Source: a bacterium
Lineage (GTDB): Bacteria; CSSED10-310; JAJRTK01
Reading direction: 5' to 3'
Length of the DNA stretch: 12,569 bases
NCBI GenBank assembly: GCA_024278345.1
Contig: JAJRTK010000531.1
Span: forward strand, 1-12,569
In this document: one piece after another, positions 451-12,194 of the stretch
How positions within the stretch are numbered: position 1 is the stretch's first letter
How the letters are laid out: each line of letters opens with the position of its first letter
Made by a program: the position numbers and the translations under genes
The notes under the pieces: model-generated
The model's database searches: none
What the model was told of the DNA's origin: nothing
What the model saw: the letters and a program-made list of their open reading frames with translations, nothing else

Positions 451-577
451 CATCATTTTGGCCACGGATCCCCGCGAAGAGCATCCCATTCGCTGGCAGT
501 GCGGTTCCCCAACGGCCCGGTTGGTGCCCCAAACTGCAGGCAGAAACCCCATACAACCTGAAGGTCAGTGTCAAGCC

Positions 578-1615
578 ATGAAGATCCATCACCTCAACTG
601 CGCCACCATGTGTCCAATTGGCGGAAATCTCATCAATGGTTCCGAGCCTCCTTGGTCCAGGGCGCGGATGGTCTGCCATTCCCTTCTCATCGAACTTGGT
701 GAAGAGCTTGTTCTTGTGGAGACGGGCCTTGGTACGGACAACATCGCCAACCCTTCGCGGTTGGGCCTGATGTTTCGGCTTTTTGCCAATCCCAGTCTGG
801 ACCCATCTGAAACAGCCGTGCGCCAGATCGAAAAGTTGGGGTTCAAGGCCTCCGACGTAAGGCACATCCTCATCACTCATCTCGATATCGATCACGCGGG
901 GGGACTTGCCGATTTTCCCGATGCTCGTATCCACATCTTTGAGGACGAATTCCGTGCCGCTATGCGGCCCGTAGGCTTCAAAGAGCGGCATCGGTACAAT
1001 AGCAGTTTCTGGGCTCATGGTCCTTACTGGAGGTGTTATTCGCCTCAGGGCGAGCCCTGGTTCGGTTTCGATTCTGTTCGCCAGCTCGAAGGACTTCCGC
1101 CGGAGATTCTCATCATCCCGATGACAGGCCATACCCGTGGCCATTCCGCCATTGCAGTCCAAGGTCCCCGGGGCTGGCTCCTTCATGCAGGCGACGCCTA
1201 TTTCCACAAGGATGAGATGCGTCCCGCGGGTGGGCGGTGTAGCCCCGGCCTTGATATCTTCCAGACTCTCATCCAGATAAACGAGCCTGCCCGAAAAAAA
1301 AACCAGGCACGCCTTCGCAAACTGGCGCTGGACAAGGCCGGAGAAGTCCGCATTTTCTGTGCTCACGACCCCGACGAATACATGAGCCTAGCCCAACCGA
1401 CGGAACATTCCCCAAGTGACGGCAGTTCAGGAGTGAAGATGCCCGTCCAACCTTCTTCCCAGGGACAAACCGCCATGCCCAAGCCCAAGCCGGACCAGAA
1501 AGACCAGGATCTCTTAGAAGACTGGAAGAAGCTCAACTCCGATCCGCCCCACATAGGCGACCTCAAGAAGCACCCACAAAAGGGGGCTTCGGGCGATAAA
1601 AAGCCGGCCAATTGA
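578..1615 (+). CDS. MBL-fold metallo-hydrolase (AHL-lactonase-like family)
   Basis: The 345-residue product is a metallo-beta-lactamase-fold hydrolase, predicted cytosolic because no signal peptide is visible. Metal-site residues in order are H101-L-D103-I-D105-H106 in THLDIDHAGG, H189 in TGHTRGHS, D206 in LLHAGDAYF, and H263 in FCAHDP. The first motif is HxDxDH, not the classical HxHxDH of quorum-quenching lactonases such as AiiA. From memory, this variant is normal in a bacterial MBL subgroup that shares the HHLNC N-terminus and the WFGF segment (about 161-164). The substrate is therefore open, and lactonase activity should not be assumed. Residues 270-345 form a hydrophilic Pro/Lys/Ser-rich tail beyond the catalytic fold. 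The ATG at 578 is chosen because homology-like sequence starts there, with AAGG 13 bases upstream. The frame stays open to 212, but that part is repeat DNA. It converges with the next gene, with 24 bases between stops. Confidence 0.88.
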   Translation: MKIHHLNCATMCPIGGNLINGSEPPWSRARMVCHSLLIELGEELVLVETGLGTDNIANPSRLGLMFRLFANPSLDPSETAVRQIEKLGFKASDVRHILITHLDIDHAGGLADFPDARIHIFEDEFRAAMRPVGFKERHRYNSSFWAHGPYWRCYSPQGEPWFGFDSVRQLEGLPPEILIIPMTGHTRGHSAIAVQGPRGWLLHAGDAYFHKDEMRPAGGRCSPGLDIFQTLIQINEPARKKNQARLRKLALDKAGEVRIFCAHDPDEYMSLAQPTEHSPSDGSSGVKMPVQPSSQGQTAMPKPKPDQKDQDLLEDWKKLNSDPPHIGDLKKHPQKGASGDKKPAN

Positions 1616-3636: not shown

Positions 3637-4974
3637 CTAGGCAAAGATTGCTCTACCAACGTGGCAGATAGGGGGCCGCATGGGCCGGAAGAATGGCAGG
3701 CGCCTTTCGCTCACGTCATTCCGGAACTGGTTGAACGGATTTCGCTTGAAGGCTGCATCAGCCTTGTCCATCCGGCGATCCTGCGCCCGCAGCCTGCGAA
3801 GCTGGCCGCCCAGGCGTCCCAGGCGATTCCGTGCTGCACTCAGGTGACGCTGCTCGCCCGGCGTCAGCTTTCCATCGGCGGCGAAGCGTTGCTCCAACCG
3901 GCCAAGGTGCTTTCGGGCATTGTCGTAATTGACCTGCTTGTTGGCGATATTCCGATCACGCTTCGCCGAGTTGATATTGCGGCGATCAAACAAGCCGATC
4001 TGTCCATCGGAACGAGCCCTGCGATAAGCGTTGCTCACCCGGTGGTTTGCCTTGTGGGCTTGCCACTTGTGGGCGCTGTCCGATATGCGGTTCCGGGCCT
4101 TCGAGGCACCGGAGCGTAGCATTCTGCCGCGTGCGCTGCGGAACATGTAGACATTGCCAGTGCGCCGCGAGCGGTAGCCCTGGGAAGTCCGAGTAAATCG
4201 TGGGCGTGGCCGACTGACGCTGGTGCGCTGTGTCTTCCATCCGTTGGAGTCCCGGACGATCCTGCGCGATGTCCGACCGGGATGGTGGTGGTGGTGGCGC
4301 ACGCGCCCGCGACTGACCCGCGGTCGCGGGAGCCTGGCGGGACGATGACGGCGGCCACCCACGCGGCGACCGATCCCGAGAGCTGAATCGATGTTGTGGC
4401 GAATCTTATTGAAGAAGCCGCGGAAACCAGTAGTTGCTTTCCGATCCGAGCGATCCATCCGGCGATCATTGGCACGCATTCGGCCAAGGGCTCTGCCGGT
4501 TCGATTCAACCGACCTCGGGCGGCTCGAATGTGCCGACTCTCGGCCGGAGTGATCTTGCCATCTCTGGCTGCCCGCATTTCGACGTTGCCAAGGTGCCGT
4601 CGCTGGCTGTCATAGCGAACCTGCATGTTGGCAATGTTGCGATTTCGGTTTGCCCCGTTGATTTGGCGCTGCTCGTACTTCGTGATCACGCCATCGGCTG
4701 CCGCCTTGCGATAAGTGCGACTTGCCCGGGAATTGGCGGTTCTGGCTTGCCACCGGTGCGATGCGTCAGAAGAACGGAACTTTGCCTTGCTGTGGCCCCG
4801 GCGCATCATGCGGAACTGCTGGCGCAGGCCCAAATATTTGGTGCGACCGACCTGTGCCCGGTGGATGTGGACCCTGGGCTTGGCCGAGCGAACCTTAGGT
4901 GCCGACGGAGCCGGCTGCCTTTGAATCCAGCCCTGGCTATCGGCAGCCTGGCTTCTGCCACGAATCGTCGTCAT
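3637..4974 (-). CDS. Arginine-rich protein with two EF-hand-like repeat modules
   Basis: The 445-residue protein is about 21% arginine (95 by my count), with no signal peptide or membrane helix. Two copies of a ~148-residue module lie at about 43-190 and 271-418. Each carries two acidic loops that look like half EF-hands: ADGVITKYE (93-101) and RDGKITPAE (137-145), then SDGQIGLFD (322-330) and ADGKLTPGE (366-374). Both modules share RNIAN, HLG and ND/QDRRMD. The linker has five consecutive His (227-231). The loop pattern recalls bacterial proteins with repeated ADGxxTxxE...QN motifs, whose function I do not know. The charge suggests binding to nucleic acid, acidic polymer or an acidic partner. 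Both modules are conserved in this frame, which supports it over the long opposite-strand frame. ATG 4974 has AAGGAG 6 bases upstream. Confidence 0.78.
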   Translation of the reverse strand: MTTIRGRSQAADSQGWIQRQPAPSAPKVRSAKPRVHIHRAQVGRTKYLGLRQQFRMMRRGHSKAKFRSSDASHRWQARTANSRASRTYRKAAADGVITKYEQRQINGANRNRNIANMQVRYDSQRRHLGNVEMRAARDGKITPAESRHIRAARGRLNRTGRALGRMRANDRRMDRSDRKATTGFRGFFNKIRHNIDSALGIGRRVGGRRHRPARLPRPRVSRGRVRHHHHHPGRTSRRIVRDSNGWKTQRTSVSRPRPRFTRTSQGYRSRRTGNVYMFRSARGRMLRSGASKARNRISDSAHKWQAHKANHRVSNAYRRARSDGQIGLFDRRNINSAKRDRNIANKQVNYDNARKHLGRLEQRFAADGKLTPGEQRHLSAARNRLGRLGGQLRRLRAQDRRMDKADAAFKRNPFNQFRNDVSERRLPFFRPMRPPICHVGRAIFA

Positions 4975-5277: not shown

Positions 5278-5985
5278 CTAGCCTTCTCTATTGCTGGTCG
5301 ATTCGACGCCGCCTTTGAGGCGTTCGATGATTTCAAGGCGCTTCGTTGCGTACTTCAGGTAGTTCGTGGACTGTTCCACGAAACTGTTAAGAAGCGGGAG
5401 GTCGGGAGTTAAATCCTTCGCCTTGTTGAAGTGATCGACGGCCTGTGTGAACCACTTCTTGGCCTGAGACGGCGCGCTTTCCTGAACCAGGCTCACGTTC
5501 CAGTACTTGATTCCCTGCTCCAGAGCTTGAAGACCATAGTCGTATTCCTTGCCTCCTTCGCCCTTGTATTGAGGCGCATATTCGCCTTCACTCATCTGCT
5601 CCCGCTGCGTGGCGATCTGCGCTGTTACCTTGTCGCCATCACTCTTGAACCAATCCTTCGCCTGGTCGGTGAGATTGCCCCAATCCACTTCCCCCAATCC
5701 TTCCACGAAGTCCTTGCTTTTCTCCGCGACGGCCTTGCCGACTTCCTTGGTCTTTTGGACGACATCCTGGCCGACCTTTTTACCGACCTTCTTGGAAAAG
5801 CTCACCCAGGCAGCCCAGTCACTTCCTTGCCACTGCCAGGGATAGCGTCCGGCCTCTTTGCTGTAAAGAAACATCGAGCCAACAACCAGCAAGATCGCCA
5901 CCACGACGATGATAGAAACCAACCGCGTCAAAAGGCCTGCCTTGGCTGGTTCACCCGATTCGTTTTTGGCACTTCGTCCACCCAT
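5278..5985 (-). CDS. Single-helix membrane-anchored protein, fourth gene of the ABC operon
   Basis: The 235-residue protein has a short hydrophilic N-terminus (1-18), one hydrophobic helix at about 19-41 (LLTRLVSIIVVVAILLVVGS), then an exterior of about 190 residues. Positive charges before the helix predict an N-in, C-out (periplasmic) topology. Residues 62-115 are Lys/Val/Asp-rich and probably helical (VGKKVGQDVVQKTKEVGKAV). Residues about 145-222 look like a TPR-type helical array (YDYGLQALEQGIKYWN, then AKKWFTQAVDHFNKAKDLTP). I recognise no named family. It starts 32 bases after the ATPase stop with AAGGAG 9 bases before ATG 5985, so it is almost surely co-transcribed. A periplasmic partner of the permease arm or the wall-bound binding protein is an inference from position and topology. 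Confidence 0.8.
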   Translation of the reverse strand: MGGRSAKNESGEPAKAGLLTRLVSIIVVVAILLVVGSMFLYSKEAGRYPWQWQGSDWAAWVSFSKKVGKKVGQDVVQKTKEVGKAVAEKSKDFVEGLGEVDWGNLTDQAKDWFKSDGDKVTAQIATQREQMSEGEYAPQYKGEGGKEYDYGLQALEQGIKYWNVSLVQESAPSQAKKWFTQAVDHFNKAKDLTPDLPLLNSFVEQSTNYLKYATKRLEIIERLKGGVESTSNREG

Positions 5986-6017
5986 CGATCCTTACTCCTT
6001 CAATTCCGTTCGTTGTT

Positions 6018-7127
6018 TCATGCTTCCTTGGCGCTCAGTTCTTCTTCGAAATAGCGGCGCTCCACCTTGGTGCTGATCTCGTGAACGATTTCGGCAAACT
6101 CCGGTCGCCGCTGCATTTCCGCGGCAGGTTCTGACGGTTGTGGCACTGCGGCCTCCTCCAGAATGGTGCCGGGAGATTCGCTCAAAATGTACACGCGATC
6201 CCCTAAATAAACTGCTTCCGCTAGATCGTGGGTGATCAAGAAAACCGTGGCTTCCACCTCATCCCAAATCCGGACCAGGAGATCCTGCATCTCCCAGCGC
6301 GTGACCCGATCTAAAGCGCCAAACGGCTCGTCCATCAAAATGATGTCCGGCTTCAGGGCAAGTGTCCGTGCGATGGCTACCCTTTGGCGCATGCCGCCGG
6401 ACAGCTCGTGAGGATACTTGTTTTCATTGCCTGACAGATTCACCTTGTCCACCCATTCCATCGCCTCCTCCTTGATGAGGCGTCTGCGGTGTCCACGAAT
6501 ACCGATGAGCGAATCGAGGGCCGCCAGAAGGGGGTTTTTCCTTCGGCGCAGTTCTTGGCACATCAGGCCAAATGCCACGTTTTGCCAGACCATGAGTTGT
6601 GGAAACGAGCTGTAATTCTGAAAGACCATTCCCCGATTCGATCCCGGCCCGCTGATAGGCTTCCCTCGGACGAGAACCGTGCCTGTTGTCGGGGGATAGA
6701 AACCGGCGATCATGTTCAAGATCGTCGATTTACCACAACCACTCGGTCCCAACAGGCAGATAAACTCGCCAATATCCGGGATGTCGTAGACTCGAAAGCT
6801 CACATCCTTGACCGCCGTGAACTTCTTGCGCCCTTGGCCAAAGGTCTTTGTCACGTTGTCGAACGTCACAATCCACATCTCGGGGTCGGGATCGTCCGGG
6901 TATTGCTCCGGAGCATGGGCGTGAGGAATCTCGAAACGCGTCTGCAGAACCTTGGAAGTTGCCGCGGGGGTAGCCTGGACGGGAACTGGCTTCGTTTCTT
7001 CGGCTTCGGGGAAGTCGGCTCCTTCCGGCGGGACGATTGGGGCGTCCATGCCCGGATTACCTTCCTTGCCCGTGGTTCCAACCCGACGCCGCTGGAGATC
7101 AAAATCGCCGTTTTGCTGATCGACCAT
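6018..7127 (-). CDS. ABC transporter ATPase, NitT/TauT (SsuB/TauB/NrtD) type
   Basis: The 369-residue cytosolic ATPase should power the permease encoded just upstream. Walker A is GPSGCGKST (127-135), the Q-loop Gln is Q170 (MVFQNYSSFP), the signature is LSGGMRQ (242-248), Walker B is IILMDEP (262-268) with the catalytic Glu E267, the D-loop is GALD, and the switch His is H300. The set is complete, so it should be active. Family members are usually about 250-270 residues. The excess is an N-terminal Pro/Glu-rich extension (1-83), a basic insertion (about 190-218) and a C-terminal tail (about 325-369). ATG 7127 lies two bases after the permease stop, with GGAG inside the permease's last codons, so translation is probably coupled. 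Substrate cannot be deduced. Confidence 0.95.
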   Translation of the reverse strand: MVDQQNGDFDLQRRRVGTTGKEGNPGMDAPIVPPEGADFPEAEETKPVPVQATPAATSKVLQTRFEIPHAHAPEQYPDDPDPEMWIVTFDNVTKTFGQGRKKFTAVKDVSFRVYDIPDIGEFICLLGPSGCGKSTILNMIAGFYPPTTGTVLVRGKPISGPGSNRGMVFQNYSSFPQLMVWQNVAFGLMCQELRRRKNPLLAALDSLIGIRGHRRRLIKEEAMEWVDKVNLSGNENKYPHELSGGMRQRVAIARTLALKPDIILMDEPFGALDRVTRWEMQDLLVRIWDEVEATVFLITHDLAEAVYLGDRVYILSESPGTILEEAAVPQPSEPAAEMQRRPEFAEIVHEISTKVERRYFEEELSAKEA

Positions 7128-7129
7128 GA

Positions 7130-9721
7130 TTAGCGGCTCCTGTCATGAGGAAAGAGGTAATGAATCACTCGTGTCCACGCCCAGTTTAGGCAGAAGGCCA
7201 AGAGCACGATGAGCACGACGACGACGTAGAGATGTTCCGGATGCCCGCGCCGGTTGGATGTCCAGATGATGTAGCCTAGGCCGTTTTCCACCCCGAGCTG
7301 CTCTGCTAGAATGATCCAGGTCCACCCGACACCGAAGGTAAATCGAAGGGCCTTCCAAATCTCAAGCTTTGACACGCCGATGAGCACCCTCCGCACGATC
7401 TGGCCTCGGCTCAGCCCCAGCGTCGATGCTGTGTCGAGATAAACCTGAGGCACCGCCTGGACGGCGGCGATGGTGTAGGGGAGCAAGACCACGAAGTTGC
7501 AGATAAAGAGGAACAAGTATTTCTGGCTCTCGGCCAGGCCCGCCCATGCGATGGTGAGAGGAATGAATGCCGGGAGAGGCAGATAGAGCCCTGAAAGGCG
7601 GATCAACTCGAACAACGCTCCCATCTTCGTGAACGAGCCCATGATGATGCCCAACGGCACCGCGATGAGGACCGCCCAAAAAAAACCCACCACGATACGG
7701 ACCATGCTCGTCGCCAGCGCACTCTCTCGGAACCGGTTCCAAGAAAAACCCTCCAAGAGCGGAAACAGGTAATCGAAATCCGTTTTTTCCAACGCCTGGT
7801 GAAGATTTTCCAGTGAAAGCTTGTTCCAGCTTTTCCCCACTGATCCCAGGATGGCGCGCCGCGAGAGCTCCGGACGGAAGACCGAGAAACCAGAAAAAGA
7901 ACCCGAAAAACGCTCCCAAGAAAAATCTTGGACCAAAGGCCAACTCCACGAAACTTTCCAGGCGCCCATGAGGTTTCGATCGAACCAAAGTGCTGGCGCA
8001 CCTTCCGCCATTTCCGTGGGACTGGGGAGATTGCTGACCCGGAACTTTTCTTTCGGCCGCTGCAAGCCAAACCCGGAGGCTACAGCTAAATCAACCTCTA
8101 CGATGTAGGCCTTCACCCCGACCGCCTGGGCGAACGCCGTGGACATCCAGGCCATCGCCGGCAAACCACTCGGTTCATCCGGTGATTGTTCCCCCGCCGC
8201 TTCCCGTGAAGTCTTCGGATCAACTGGCGGATCCCCCCCAGCGGCTGGATCTTCGCCAGTGGACTTGTTCTCGGCCCCTTCAATATCTTGCGCGGAGTCT
8301 TCAACGCCGCCTTCGTTGCCTGCCGCCGCTTCACCGTGGGAGACCGTCTCGCCATCTCCACCTTTGCTCTCTTCCTTTGCGTCCCCGTCAGCTCCGTCAA
8401 CTGAGCCTTCAGGCGTCTCACTGTCACCCCCGTCCCGCTGGTGGGCTTCCCCATCCCCTTCTTGAGACGTGCCATCCTCGGACGCCTCCTTGGCACCCTC
8501 GGCGGCGACCGGCGCCTCTTGGCCATTGGGGGCATCCATCTCCTCGCTGCCGGAGCCTTCCGAGTCGTCTTTGCCACCATCCGAAGTGGCCTCCCCTTCT
8601 AAAGCCTCGCCTTCCTTTGATGCAGCTTCGCCTTCCTTTGTCCATGGAGAAGATGCCTTTGGGGCCTCCAGCCCAACGCCCACTAGGGCCAGTGTCTGCG
8701 GGAGCTCCGGATAAGTCTCGACGGAAAGGGGCGGGAGAGCATCATACGACAGCGTCGAAACTGTAATGGGAATCGAGCGCTTCTTCTCAGTGCGGGCCAG
8801 CTCCAAGGAAACCGCCATTTCCTCTGCCTTGAAATGAAGAAGCACTTCTTCATCCAAAGCCAGCAGAGCGATGGGGGAAGAGGGGCCAAGTCCCGCTCGG
8901 TAGATCTTCTCTGGATCTGCCACGGTCCCCACAAGAAGCTTGTCGCTTTTTCGGCGGAACGTCCCCTGGACTCCCAGCTCTTTCGCCAAATCTAAGAGAT
9001 CGGATTCTTCCAGGCGATCTCCACCCCCTTTGTAGGGGTGCATGGTTCCTCGCATGCGCCGCTCCAGGCGCACCTTGACGCGGCCTCTCAGGGAATCGAG
9101 CTCGAACAGAACGGGTTCCCCGGCCCTGACGGCGGCCTTGTAGGGCAGGGGCCCAAATCCTCCGCCTGTCTCAGCTTTCTCCACATCCACCACGATGGCC
9201 CGGTAGGTCGTCGCATCCACCCGGGCAAACTGACCCAAACCGAACTGATCGGCGGTTTGAAAGATGCCGGGATAGTTTGCCTGGTTAAATTCCGGGAGAG
9301 CATTTTCCGCCATCGGGGGGAGATCGAGGACGACGGTGTTGCCACTGGCCGTGCGGATCAAATGAAGTTGGTGGGTGTTGCCGTCGATGTTGAGGCTGAC
9401 CTCGTCACCCAGCCTGACCTTTTTGGACGGGAATCGCTGTTCGATGGCATGGGTCAGCCACACCGGGTAGGTCGTCGCCCAGCCCCAAGCCAAAAAAATG
9501 GCGCAAAGAAAAAGAGCTGGGAGTGCCAAATAGCTCGCAATGGAAATAGTCTCGCGGATCCTGAAAAAGGGTTCCAGCAGGCGAAAAGGGAGAGCCAGCA
9601 ACCAGATCAGCTTCCAGACGGCGCGAGACACCGGTCCTAGCTCATCTATCTCCTCCTCCTCGTAAAGGTTTTCTTCCAGGTCAACTGCTTCGAATTCTTC
9701 GTCGTGATCATTTGGCTTCAT
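7130..9721 (-). CDS. ABC transporter permease with a giant periplasmic insertion
   Basis: The 863-residue inner-membrane permease belongs to the BPD_transp_1/NitT-TauT class, whose members are usually about 250-300 residues. It has an acidic N-terminus (1-30), a hydrophobic amphipathic segment (35-54), and a first helix at 59-84. A soluble, probably beta-rich region (85-355) follows, then an acidic Gly/Glu/Asp/Ser linker (about 362-520) and a second folded stretch (521-660). The membrane core is at about 668-855. Within it, the ATPase-contacting EAA loop is TASTLGLSRGQIVRR (764-778), and GLGYIIWTSN resembles SsuC/TauC ends. Thus nearly 600 residues sit between helix 1 and the core, predicted periplasmic. 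ATG 9721 is chosen because AGGA lies 6 bases upstream; the open extension to 9847 is Arg/Gly-rich and runs through intergenic DNA. The ATPase gene follows after two bases. Confidence 0.92.
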   Translation of the reverse strand: MKPNDHDEEFEAVDLEENLYEEEEIDELGPVSRAVWKLIWLLALPFRLLEPFFRIRETISIASYLALPALFLCAIFLAWGWATTYPVWLTHAIEQRFPSKKVRLGDEVSLNIDGNTHQLHLIRTASGNTVVLDLPPMAENALPEFNQANYPGIFQTADQFGLGQFARVDATTYRAIVVDVEKAETGGGFGPLPYKAAVRAGEPVLFELDSLRGRVKVRLERRMRGTMHPYKGGGDRLEESDLLDLAKELGVQGTFRRKSDKLLVGTVADPEKIYRAGLGPSSPIALLALDEEVLLHFKAEEMAVSLELARTEKKRSIPITVSTLSYDALPPLSVETYPELPQTLALVGVGLEAPKASSPWTKEGEAASKEGEALEGEATSDGGKDDSEGSGSEEMDAPNGQEAPVAAEGAKEASEDGTSQEGDGEAHQRDGGDSETPEGSVDGADGDAKEESKGGDGETVSHGEAAAGNEGGVEDSAQDIEGAENKSTGEDPAAGGDPPVDPKTSREAAGEQSPDEPSGLPAMAWMSTAFAQAVGVKAYIVEVDLAVASGFGLQRPKEKFRVSNLPSPTEMAEGAPALWFDRNLMGAWKVSWSWPLVQDFSWERFSGSFSGFSVFRPELSRRAILGSVGKSWNKLSLENLHQALEKTDFDYLFPLLEGFSWNRFRESALATSMVRIVVGFFWAVLIAVPLGIIMGSFTKMGALFELIRLSGLYLPLPAFIPLTIAWAGLAESQKYLFLFICNFVVLLPYTIAAVQAVPQVYLDTASTLGLSRGQIVRRVLIGVSKLEIWKALRFTFGVGWTWIILAEQLGVENGLGYIIWTSNRRGHPEHLYVVVVLIVLLAFCLNWAWTRVIHYLFPHDRSR

Positions 9722-9854
9722 TGAGCTTCCTTTTGCTCCCCTCCTCCGATGAGTTCTACGAGTCGGAGACGCTCGAACTCCCGCTGGCTCCGCGAATCTC
9801 CCGCGAAGGCCCCCGCTTTGTCGAATTTCGGTGGGGTCACCGGACAACAGAGCC

Positions 9855-9893
9855 CTGATACCGGGCGCATCCCTGATACGGCCTCGGTATCAG
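9855..9893 (-). promoter_or_regulatory. Competing stem-loops between binding-protein and permease genes
   Basis: CTGATAC occurs twice (9855-9861 and 9873-9879), and its complement GTATCAG once (9887-9893). The distal copy can pair over 8 bp (9855-9862 with 9886-9893), the proximal one over 7 bp (9873-9879 with 9887-9893). The two folds exclude each other. Lying after the binding-protein gene inside the operon, they could stabilise upstream mRNA or limit read-through into the permease. No ligand-binding class is recognised. Confidence 0.5.
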
Positions 9894-9897
9894 TGCC

Positions 9898-9914
9898 GCT
9901 CAGCTACTCTGAGC
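9898..9914 (-). terminator. 6-bp hairpin in the operon's internal spacer
   Basis: GCTCAG (9898-9903) pairs perfectly with CTGAGC (9909-9914) around CTACT. It is the middle one of three stacked hairpins in the 234-base spacer. No U-tract follows on the minus strand. Confidence 0.35.
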
Positions 9915-9916
9915 TA

Positions 9917-9941
9917 GGGACTGGCGTTTTTCCGCCAGCCC
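9917..9941 (-). terminator. Hairpin just after the binding-protein stop
   Basis: CTGGCG (9921-9926) pairs with CGCCAG (9933-9938). GGG/CCC (9917-9919/9939-9941) extend it past one bulged A. It begins 14 bases after the stop at 9956. On the minus strand no U-run follows, so it more likely shields the upstream mRNA's 3' end or gives partial termination. This would suit a binding protein needed in excess over the permease. Confidence 0.45.
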
Positions 9942-9955
9942 CTCGAAATAGACCA

Positions 9956-11608
9956 TCATTCAGGAGTCAAAACCTTGATCTCCACTCGCCGCGACAGCGC
10001 ATTGGATTCCAGAGGCTTGGTCCAACCCATGCCAGAGGTGAAGAACTTGTCCTTCTGCTTCTTGAAGTCGGGGAACTTGTTGATGAGCGCCAACAGGACG
10101 CCGCGGGCACGCTGCTGTGAAAGCTCTTTGACTCGCTGGGCATGCTTCTTGAGATAGGCACTGCCCAGGGCCTTGGCATCCTCGTATTTCGAACGATCCG
10201 CATGGCCGATGATCACGATGGTGCTGTTGCCAAACTGCGAGGCCATCCGCCCGATTTCCGCAACGATTTTGTCGGAATTCGGGTCGTACTTCGCGTTGAC
10301 GTCCGCCCGGTTCGGAGCAAAGTGGATCCGCACCGTCCGCGTCAAGATCTCCTGCGCCTTCTCAGGATCGAAATCCACCTTGAGCGGGACGTAGGTGTCG
10401 ACGTACTCGTTTTTGCTCTCTTTGTAGTCGGCAGCGATCTTCTCGATGATCCTGGGATCCATCACCTTGTTAAATGGTACCGGATGCGCCAGGTAACCGG
10501 CTTCCTGGTAGATGTTGTTAATGGTGTCCCAGGTGTTTTCGAAGTTCGATGGGTTATTGACGTTGATCAGGAACTCAGCGTTCTCAGCGTAGTTCGTCGC
10601 GTGGGCATCCGCCATCATGGCTTCGGCTTCACCTTTGGGCAGACTGAACGCGGCCTCGAAGAGTGCCGCCGCTTTCGCCTTGTCGTCCGTCACCATCCTC
10701 ATTCCCTCAAAGATCCCTCTTACTAGACCTTCGAGGACGTCGGGATGGTCCTTGGCAAAGTCGGCTCGCGCAGCCCAAACATCCGCGATGACCCGCTTGG
10801 CGTCCGCGGTTGTCGAAACCAGCGCCACGTCTTTGATTCCGCTCTTCTTCGGATCGGAGATGTTGTAAATATCCGGTGCCCAAGAAACACAAACGTCCAC
10901 GGTGTCGTCATTCACAAACGCATTCGCCGCCTGGAAGGCGTCACCCGTGAAGCGGAAGATGACCTGATCGGGCTTGATCCCCGCAAAATAGAGCAAGTTC
11001 AAGATGTAGTAGTGCGACGGCGAGTTCTGCGCCAACGCGATGACTCGTTTCTTGCCGTCTTTGGGGCGAAGGTCGTTGATGGTCTTGATGCCGCCTCGCG
11101 CCACAACGCCGTCCCCACCGTTCGACCAGTCGATCTGCTGGTAGATCCGCAGGCCCGTTCGAGAATCCTTCGCCAATTCGGGCGCAAAAAGCGCCATCAT
11201 GTCCAGCGTTCCCCACAAAATGTGGGACTTGCCGGCGGCAAACGCATTCCGGGCTTCGATGGGATCATCGATAATCGGCAATTCCACCCGAAAACCGAAC
11301 TGCTTGTAGAAGAGGCTGTCGTCGTTCGCCTTCAACCCGCCGTTGGCCATGATGATCGGCGCCCAGCCGATCCAAAGGTTGATAGGGAAGATAACCGTCT
11401 TGGTCTCATCCCACTGATATCCGCTCACGCCCTTTACCGGGGGCAGCGTCTCGGCCGGGACATACGAGTATTTCTCGACCGTTGTGATGGGGGTACCCGT
11501 CGGATCTTCCGGCGGCGGCTGAGAATTCGCCGTGCCGCTAACAAGCAGCCCCATAAACACTGGTAGCGCCATGAGTCCACTCAAACGGCGCATCATTCTC
11601 TTCATCAT
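9956..11608 (-). CDS. NitT/TauT-type substrate-binding protein fused to an OmpA-like domain
   Basis: The 550-residue periplasmic protein is the first gene of the operon. The signal peptide is 1-29 (basic MMKRMMRR, hydrophobic LMALPVFMGLLVSG, probable cut after TANS); there is no lipobox Cys. Residues about 70-400 resemble the NMT1/SsuA/TauA binding-protein fold: FPINLWIGWAPIIMANGG near the start, FAAGKSHILWGTLD, and a second-lobe NSPSHYYILNLLYFAGI. Residues about 425-548 form an OmpA-like domain: VRIHFAPNRADV, IVIIGHADRS, LSQQRARGV, GMGW and NALSRRVEI. D471 and R500 occupy the positions that hold diaminopimelate of peptidoglycan in OmpA. The fusion should tether the receptor to the cell wall. 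GGAGG 7 bases before ATG 11608 decides the start; the open extension to 11683 has no such site. Ligand unknown. Confidence 0.93.
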   Translation of the reverse strand: MMKRMMRRLSGLMALPVFMGLLVSGTANSQPPPEDPTGTPITTVEKYSYVPAETLPPVKGVSGYQWDETKTVIFPINLWIGWAPIIMANGGLKANDDSLFYKQFGFRVELPIIDDPIEARNAFAAGKSHILWGTLDMMALFAPELAKDSRTGLRIYQQIDWSNGGDGVVARGGIKTINDLRPKDGKKRVIALAQNSPSHYYILNLLYFAGIKPDQVIFRFTGDAFQAANAFVNDDTVDVCVSWAPDIYNISDPKKSGIKDVALVSTTADAKRVIADVWAARADFAKDHPDVLEGLVRGIFEGMRMVTDDKAKAAALFEAAFSLPKGEAEAMMADAHATNYAENAEFLINVNNPSNFENTWDTINNIYQEAGYLAHPVPFNKVMDPRIIEKIAADYKESKNEYVDTYVPLKVDFDPEKAQEILTRTVRIHFAPNRADVNAKYDPNSDKIVAEIGRMASQFGNSTIVIIGHADRSKYEDAKALGSAYLKKHAQRVKELSQQRARGVLLALINKFPDFKKQKDKFFTSGMGWTKPLESNALSRRVEIKVLTPE

Positions 11609-12096: not shown

Positions 12097-12194
12097 GGAA
12101 GCGGATGGGGGCTGGTGCCCCCCACGGTCTTCAAAACCGCGCGTACGGCCCTGAACAGGTCGTAGGTGGGTTCGATTCCCACACGCTTCCGCCA
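12097..12194 (+). tRNA. selC: tRNA-Sec (UCA)
   Basis: This 98-base gene encodes selenocysteine tRNA, including its own CCA (12192-12194). The acceptor is GGAAGCGG (12097-12104) against ACGCTTCC (12183-12190): seven pairs plus a non-Watson-Crick G/A at the eighth, then discriminator G. The D-stem is 6 bp (GGGGGC/GCCCCC, 12107-12122) with a four-base loop, a hallmark of this tRNA. The anticodon loop CTTCAAA carries TCA at 12131-12133, with stem CGGT/ACCG. The long variable arm is TACGGCC/GGTCGTA (12144-12164). The T-arm is GTGGG-TTCGATT-CCCAC (12166-12182). The start GGAAG and end CTTCCGCCA match E. coli selC. No selenoprotein or selA/B/D gene is in the window. selC is a classic integration site for islands in other bacteria, and inverted-repeat DNA begins 63 bases downstream. 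Confidence 0.96.

Follow-up and report, generated by a model that had tools for sequence, protein, structure and literature searches.

We analysed a bacterial DNA stretch of 12,569 nucleotides (the window), which is the entire contig JAJRTK010000531.1 of an unfinished genome (G000, 88% complete) and carries a set of four genes for a putative ABC (ATP-binding cassette) importer. From the open reading frames of the window, we observed that these genes lie on the minus strand in the order receptor, permease, ATPase and gene 4, with intergenic spacers of 234, 2 and 32 bases along the operon. An earlier reading made from the letters alone (the original prediction) had given the same coordinates and spacers and had described an operon-like gene set of a NitT/TauT-type importer; both descriptions hold. 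Tetranucleotide composition correlates at r 0.89–0.94 with eight other G000 contigs and at 0.40–0.85 with loci of other genomes, which rules out a mis-binned contig. The features of the locus are as follows (TM, transmembrane segment).

9956..11608, minus strand: receptor, 550 amino acids, with a signal peptide, a TauA/SsuA-type binding domain (about residues 67–390) and an OmpA domain (about residues 455–547)
9722..9955, minus strand: spacer between receptor and permease, 234 bases, strong hairpins
7130..9721, minus strand: permease, 863 amino acids from ATG (905 from an upstream TTG); by hydropathy, TM1 at residues 59–77, an extra periplasmic loop at 78–665, and TM2 to the end at 666–863
8147..8701, minus strand: acidic low-complexity linker, recognized by composition, permease residues 341–525 (185 residues)
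6018..7127, minus strand: ABC ATPase, 369 amino acids
5278..5985, minus strand: gene 4, 235 amino acids, single-pass membrane-anchored helical protein

The AlphaFold2 model of the receptor has a pLDDT (predicted local distance difference test score) of 89, and its nearest solved structures in Foldseek are TauA and SsuA (TauA, 6ssy_B: E 8.7e-15; Z 27.0 over 287 residues at 3.8 Å). TauA uses Glu106 and Asp205 to bind the amine group of taurine (PMC6906117). The two align to Asp166 and Asp276 of the receptor, both acidic and invariant in the family, and because the amine-holding pair is matched in this way, the solute probably bears an amine. The C-terminal part matches the Pfam family OmpA (PF00691) with 35.2 bits against a cut-off of 27.2, and by profile it is nearest to the peptidoglycan-binding domain of Acinetobacter baumannii OmpA (PDB 3td3, E 2.9e-15). 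Asp471 (in GHxD) and Arg500 (in LSxxR) are invariant across 40 receptor relatives and line up with the Asp/Arg pair of 3td3, which holds diaminopimelate. The domain thus appears intact as a peptidoglycan-binding type, in agreement with the wall-bound receptor of the original prediction, the binding itself being read from these two residues.

The ATPase has all the catalytic motifs (Walker A GPSGCGKST, signature LSGGM, Walker B ILMDEP and the switch histidine in LITHD) and an N-terminal extension of about 85 residues, in agreement with the original prediction of an extended ATPase. It matches ABC_tran (PF00005) at 1.6e-30 and, among NCBIfam models, the SaoA/TauB/NtrCD type, with every score under the curated cut-off. 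The permease matches BPD_transp_1 (PF00528) over the cut-off with 34 bits at its C-terminal region, and the TauC/SaoP models with E values of about 1e-22. Compared with TauABC/SsuABC, a NitT/TauT system, the window shares the receptor fold, the permease core, the ATPase and the amine-binding acidic positions of TauA, but differs by the OmpA fusion, about 580 extra permease residues, the ATPase extension and an extra gene. All three components missed the equivalog cut-offs for TauABC in NCBIfam (receptor 35.7 against 490 bits, permease 81.9 against 342, ATPase 204.1 against 357).

A known importer family and its PspA-linked operon

A scan of genome contigs gave 80 loci with relatives of the receptor. 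By record titles, these belong to Acidobacteriota, Riflebacteria, Planctomycetota, Deltaproteobacteria, Elusimicrobia, Armatimonadota and others; the phylum names are provisional, as the sources are metagenome bins. The receptor is 62% identical to its nearest relative (locus L011, titled Planctomycetota) and 42–50% identical to the others, so that the range of 42–62% applies over most of its length, and most of these relatives have a full PspA-linked operon. The next genes are usually a permease and an ABC ATPase, and the permease, where found, has a median length of 287 amino acids, mostly 260–350.

Clustering of the neighbours gave the usual order as a PspA-family gene, receptor, permease, ATPase, a helical TM protein (about 290 amino acids, two membrane helices near the N-terminus) and an AAA+ ATPase (about 600 amino acids, with two AAA domains). 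A PspA-type gene lies directly upstream in 58 of the 67 loci with sufficient upstream sequence; for the TM protein and the AAA ATPase, the counts are 43 and 36, respectively, of the 50 loci with sufficient downstream sequence. Operons of this kind, combining PspA, TM-Snf7 and two-AAA genes with an ABC ATPase, a permease and a PBPB-OmpA protein (example OGG56892.1), were published by Ravi et al. 2024 (PMC11237479), who also proposed that the PBPB-OmpA protein binds the wall. The core importer family is widespread and, being published there, already known.

The window and L011 resemble this PspA-linked system in having a binding domain joined to OmpA, an adjacent permease and an ABC ATPase. They differ from it in having no linked PspA, TM protein or AAA ATPase, a signal peptide in place of the TM anchor, permeases of 863 and 694 amino acids, and gene 4. 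We found no two-AAA ATPase, no TM protein and no member of the linked PspA subfamily in either G000 or the genome of L011 (G008); the only AAA matches there (E about 1e-17) cover the common AAA region alone and look FtsH-like. When 92 receptors are placed on a tree, those of the window and L011 group together with full support; their stem is long and arises within PspA-linked lineages. Because of this nesting, the loss of the module is taken as derived, and the window is classed as a variant of the PspA-linked system and not as a full member, since the linked PspA/AAA module is missing.

By its sequence relationships, the window copy thus belongs to a known family of wall-binding importers, as a derived, stripped and elongated variant. 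We give a probability of about 0.72 to this reading, in which it is a derived member of a widespread TauABC-like importer family with a receptor tethered to peptidoglycan by OmpA, and the linked module has been lost or replaced.

Several observations weigh against it. Two genomes underlie the absence of the module, and one of them, G000, is 88% complete. A complete absence of PspA from G000 was ruled out: the general Pfam model finds three ordinary PspA-family genes elsewhere in G000 and one weak match, above cut-off, in G008, which limits the absence to the linked subfamily; two of the three G000 genes, scored with the model of that subfamily, gave about 4 bits. The long loop of the permease has no detectable relatives and no confident AlphaFold2 fold. 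Four loci (L066, L072, L085 and L087) have PspA and the receptor, with no adjacent permease or ATPase found in nearly 8 kb downstream. As some relatives are without an adjacent permease, the receptor may have a second role, and it may work without its own transporter.

Permease loop and receptor anchor

The roughly 580 extra residues of the permease sit in its first periplasmic loop, which is split by a conserved LPSPTE motif at residue 565. The AlphaFold2 model has a core with pLDDT >85, and most of residues 135–557 fall below 50. The linker at residues 341–525 consists of 26% D/E, 53% G/S/A/P/T and 9% hydrophobic residues. A giant periplasmic arm had been predicted; the very long periplasmic loop is indeed present, but the 185-residue acidic linker and the mostly low pLDDT give no support for a rigid arm.

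Long TM1–TM2 loops occur at three positions of the tree: in the window and L011, in Riflebacteria and kin (permeases of 402–453 amino acids), and in one group of Planctomycetota (about 530 amino acids). The insertion lies mainly before the LPSPTE motif in the window and after it in L011. When the loops of the three clades were compared by profile, none matched another, though a homology too faint to detect may exist. A common origin was set aside on this ground, and separate gains, at least three times, are preferred. The differing insertion points and the lack of similarity together describe the loop as a recurrent addition in one region and not as a shared domain.

We also compared the N-termini of the receptors. 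In nearly all relatives, the N-terminus is an uncleaved-looking membrane helix, for example VGPTxLGKxVxFLFIxxL, and the usual receptor would therefore reach from the inner membrane to the wall. Such TM-anchored relatives resemble the membrane-to-wall tether of MotB. The receptor of the window shares with MotB/PomB and Pal/OmpA proteins an OmpA domain with the conserved Asp and Arg, but differs from them by its solute-binding domain, by the lack of a TM anchor and by the lack of a flagellar or Tol context. Judged by eye from the sequences, a cleavable-looking signal peptide replaces the anchor in the window, in L011 and in Riflebacteria. Receptors with a signal peptide make up 9 of the 13 rows with a long permease loop, whereas none was seen among the 55 short-loop rows; four long-loop rows retain the anchor.

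This distribution suggests that the permease arm may substitute for the membrane anchor of the receptor. A Fisher test on rows gives p 1.5e-8, a value made invalid by the kinship of the rows; the independent losses of the anchor number two. We therefore dismissed any statistical significance of the association, as the rows are related and the tree holds two independent pairs, and with just two independent losses the pattern is treated as a lead and not as a result. The original prediction had linked the deviations on the periplasmic side to each other. This link stands in so far as every receptor seen to have lost its anchor comes with a long permease loop; it does not stand as a joint co-evolution of four parts. 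It could be imagined that the receptor tether and the permease loop trade places, such that an independently grown loop permits loss of the anchor and the receptor, fixed to the wall only, is reached by the permease boom. We regard this scheme as unlikely; if true, the receptor of this ABC importer would stay in place on the wall, where others diffuse or carry a lipid anchor.

Gene 4 and the coherence of the gene set

Gene 4 encodes one N-terminal membrane helix, as predicted, followed by a C-terminal part predicted to be periplasmic. The protein has a motif GRxPWxWxxxDWxxF; no Pfam or NCBIfam family scored above cut-off. Among the 80 relatives, gene 4 stands beside the operon in one, L011, whose adjoining homologue is 26% identical. 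Profile searches (E 7e-14 to 2e-6) also placed gene-4 relatives at other loci of Planctomycetota, where a conserved neighbourhood consists of a GAF-SpoIIE phosphatase, a tRNA-dihydrouridine synthase (Dus), the gene-4 relative and two-component NtrC-type regulators; we saw this neighbourhood at L145, L146, L148, L149 and L150. G008 has three matches to the gene-4 profile. Four genomes (G026, G110, G126 and G142) have both a gene-4 relative and an operon with the fused receptor, on different contigs. Since relatives occur in other neighbourhoods and on contigs apart from the importer, gene 4 is classed, from these profile matches, as an independent family recruited beside the importer.

The frequent location of this family elsewhere would also fit a chance arrangement, in which gene 4 is a separate gene that happens to lie behind the importer and the permease has undergone a neutral disordered expansion, its insert being largely of low confidence and partly of low complexity. 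However, two genomes of different phylum grouping and unlike GC content (0.58 and 0.69) both have gene 4 behind the ATPase and on its strand, and in the window 32 bases separate the two genes. We consider chance neighbourhood improbable, although of the alternatives it fares slightly best.

The original prediction had seen the four parts as one co-evolved, envelope-spanning importer. In such a machine, the permease arm and gene 4 would be indispensable links. The window and L011 do share the receptor, a long permease and gene 4, and loss of the receptor anchor is confined to long-loop lineages (9/13 against 0/55 rows). However, the 80-locus comparison contradicts the claim: homologous operons keep the receptor fusion with permeases mostly of 260–350 amino acids, in place of one of >700 residues, and with gene 4 in a single case. 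Many phyla have the core but neither the arm nor gene 4, gene 4 is found apart from the core, and lengthened permeases also occur in further lineages whose operons have no gene 4. Moreover, the loops of the window and L011 are inserted at different points, those of other clades are unrelated in detectable sequence, and two independent anchor losses give no significance on the tree. A co-evolved machine is hence doubtful.

It is equally doubtful that the set mainly senses or relays the envelope state within a PspA/AAA membrane-remodelling system, the window copy being a sensory remnant: the association with PspA, TM protein and AAA ATPase genes, the MotB-like bridging of membrane and wall by TM-anchored OmpA receptors, and the loci that retain PspA and receptor without an adjacent permease point that way, but the window lineage keeps a full ABC unit with intact motifs despite the missing remodelling genes, and the residues of the ligand pocket are invariant.

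Under the preferred reading, that of a derived wall-tethered importer, the receptor would be exported, its signal peptide cleaved, and its OmpA domain, going by its residues, would grip diaminopimelate-type peptidoglycan. The two-lobed domain would capture a small solute, probably amine-bearing as judged from the alignment, and the loaded receptor would hand it to a homodimeric permease powered by the ATPase, as the fold and motifs suggest. In the lineage of the window, the module of PspA, TM protein and two-AAA ATPase would have been lost or replaced, the receptor would have turned wall-bound only, the permease loop would have lengthened, and a protein of the gene-4 family, present elsewhere in such genomes, would have been recruited beside the operon. 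It is conceivable that the long loop and gene 4 hold the wall-bound receptor near the permease.

The receptor of an ABC importer is usually pictured as moving freely in the periplasm, held by a lipid anchor or joined to the permease. A family with wall-binding receptors raises the question of how solute is delivered when the receptor cannot diffuse. Its natural variants (TM plus wall or wall only, short or long loops, with or without PspA/AAA genes) allow a direct test of delivery, and could also tell transport apart from the function in envelope stress that has been proposed for PspA-linked members.

Spacer and neighbouring features

The 234-base spacer has a predicted RNA fold of −111.5 kcal/mol (z −4.9 against shuffles) with several GC-rich hairpins. 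On the operon strand, it contains no terminator-like site, and as it occurs in a single copy in G000, a dispersed repeat was rejected. The hairpins may cause the receptor and permease parts of the mRNA to differ in stability or to be processed differently. N-terminal extensions of the ATPase were also seen in Riflebacteria.

Elsewhere in the window, 3637-4974 (minus strand) encodes a 445-amino-acid Arg-rich protein with two repeated halves (INGANRNRNIANMQVRYDSQRRHLG and INSAKRDRNIANKQVNYDNARKHLG), for which a Pfam scan gave no family above cut-off. A metallo-beta-lactamase-fold hydrolase like N-acyl homoserine lactonases, scoring far under the curated cut-offs, is encoded at 560-1615 (plus strand). 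A selenocysteine tRNA with anticodon TCA adjoins the operon at 12097-12194 (plus strand), and a SelB-type factor above its curated cut-off is found on another contig (C109) of the same genome.

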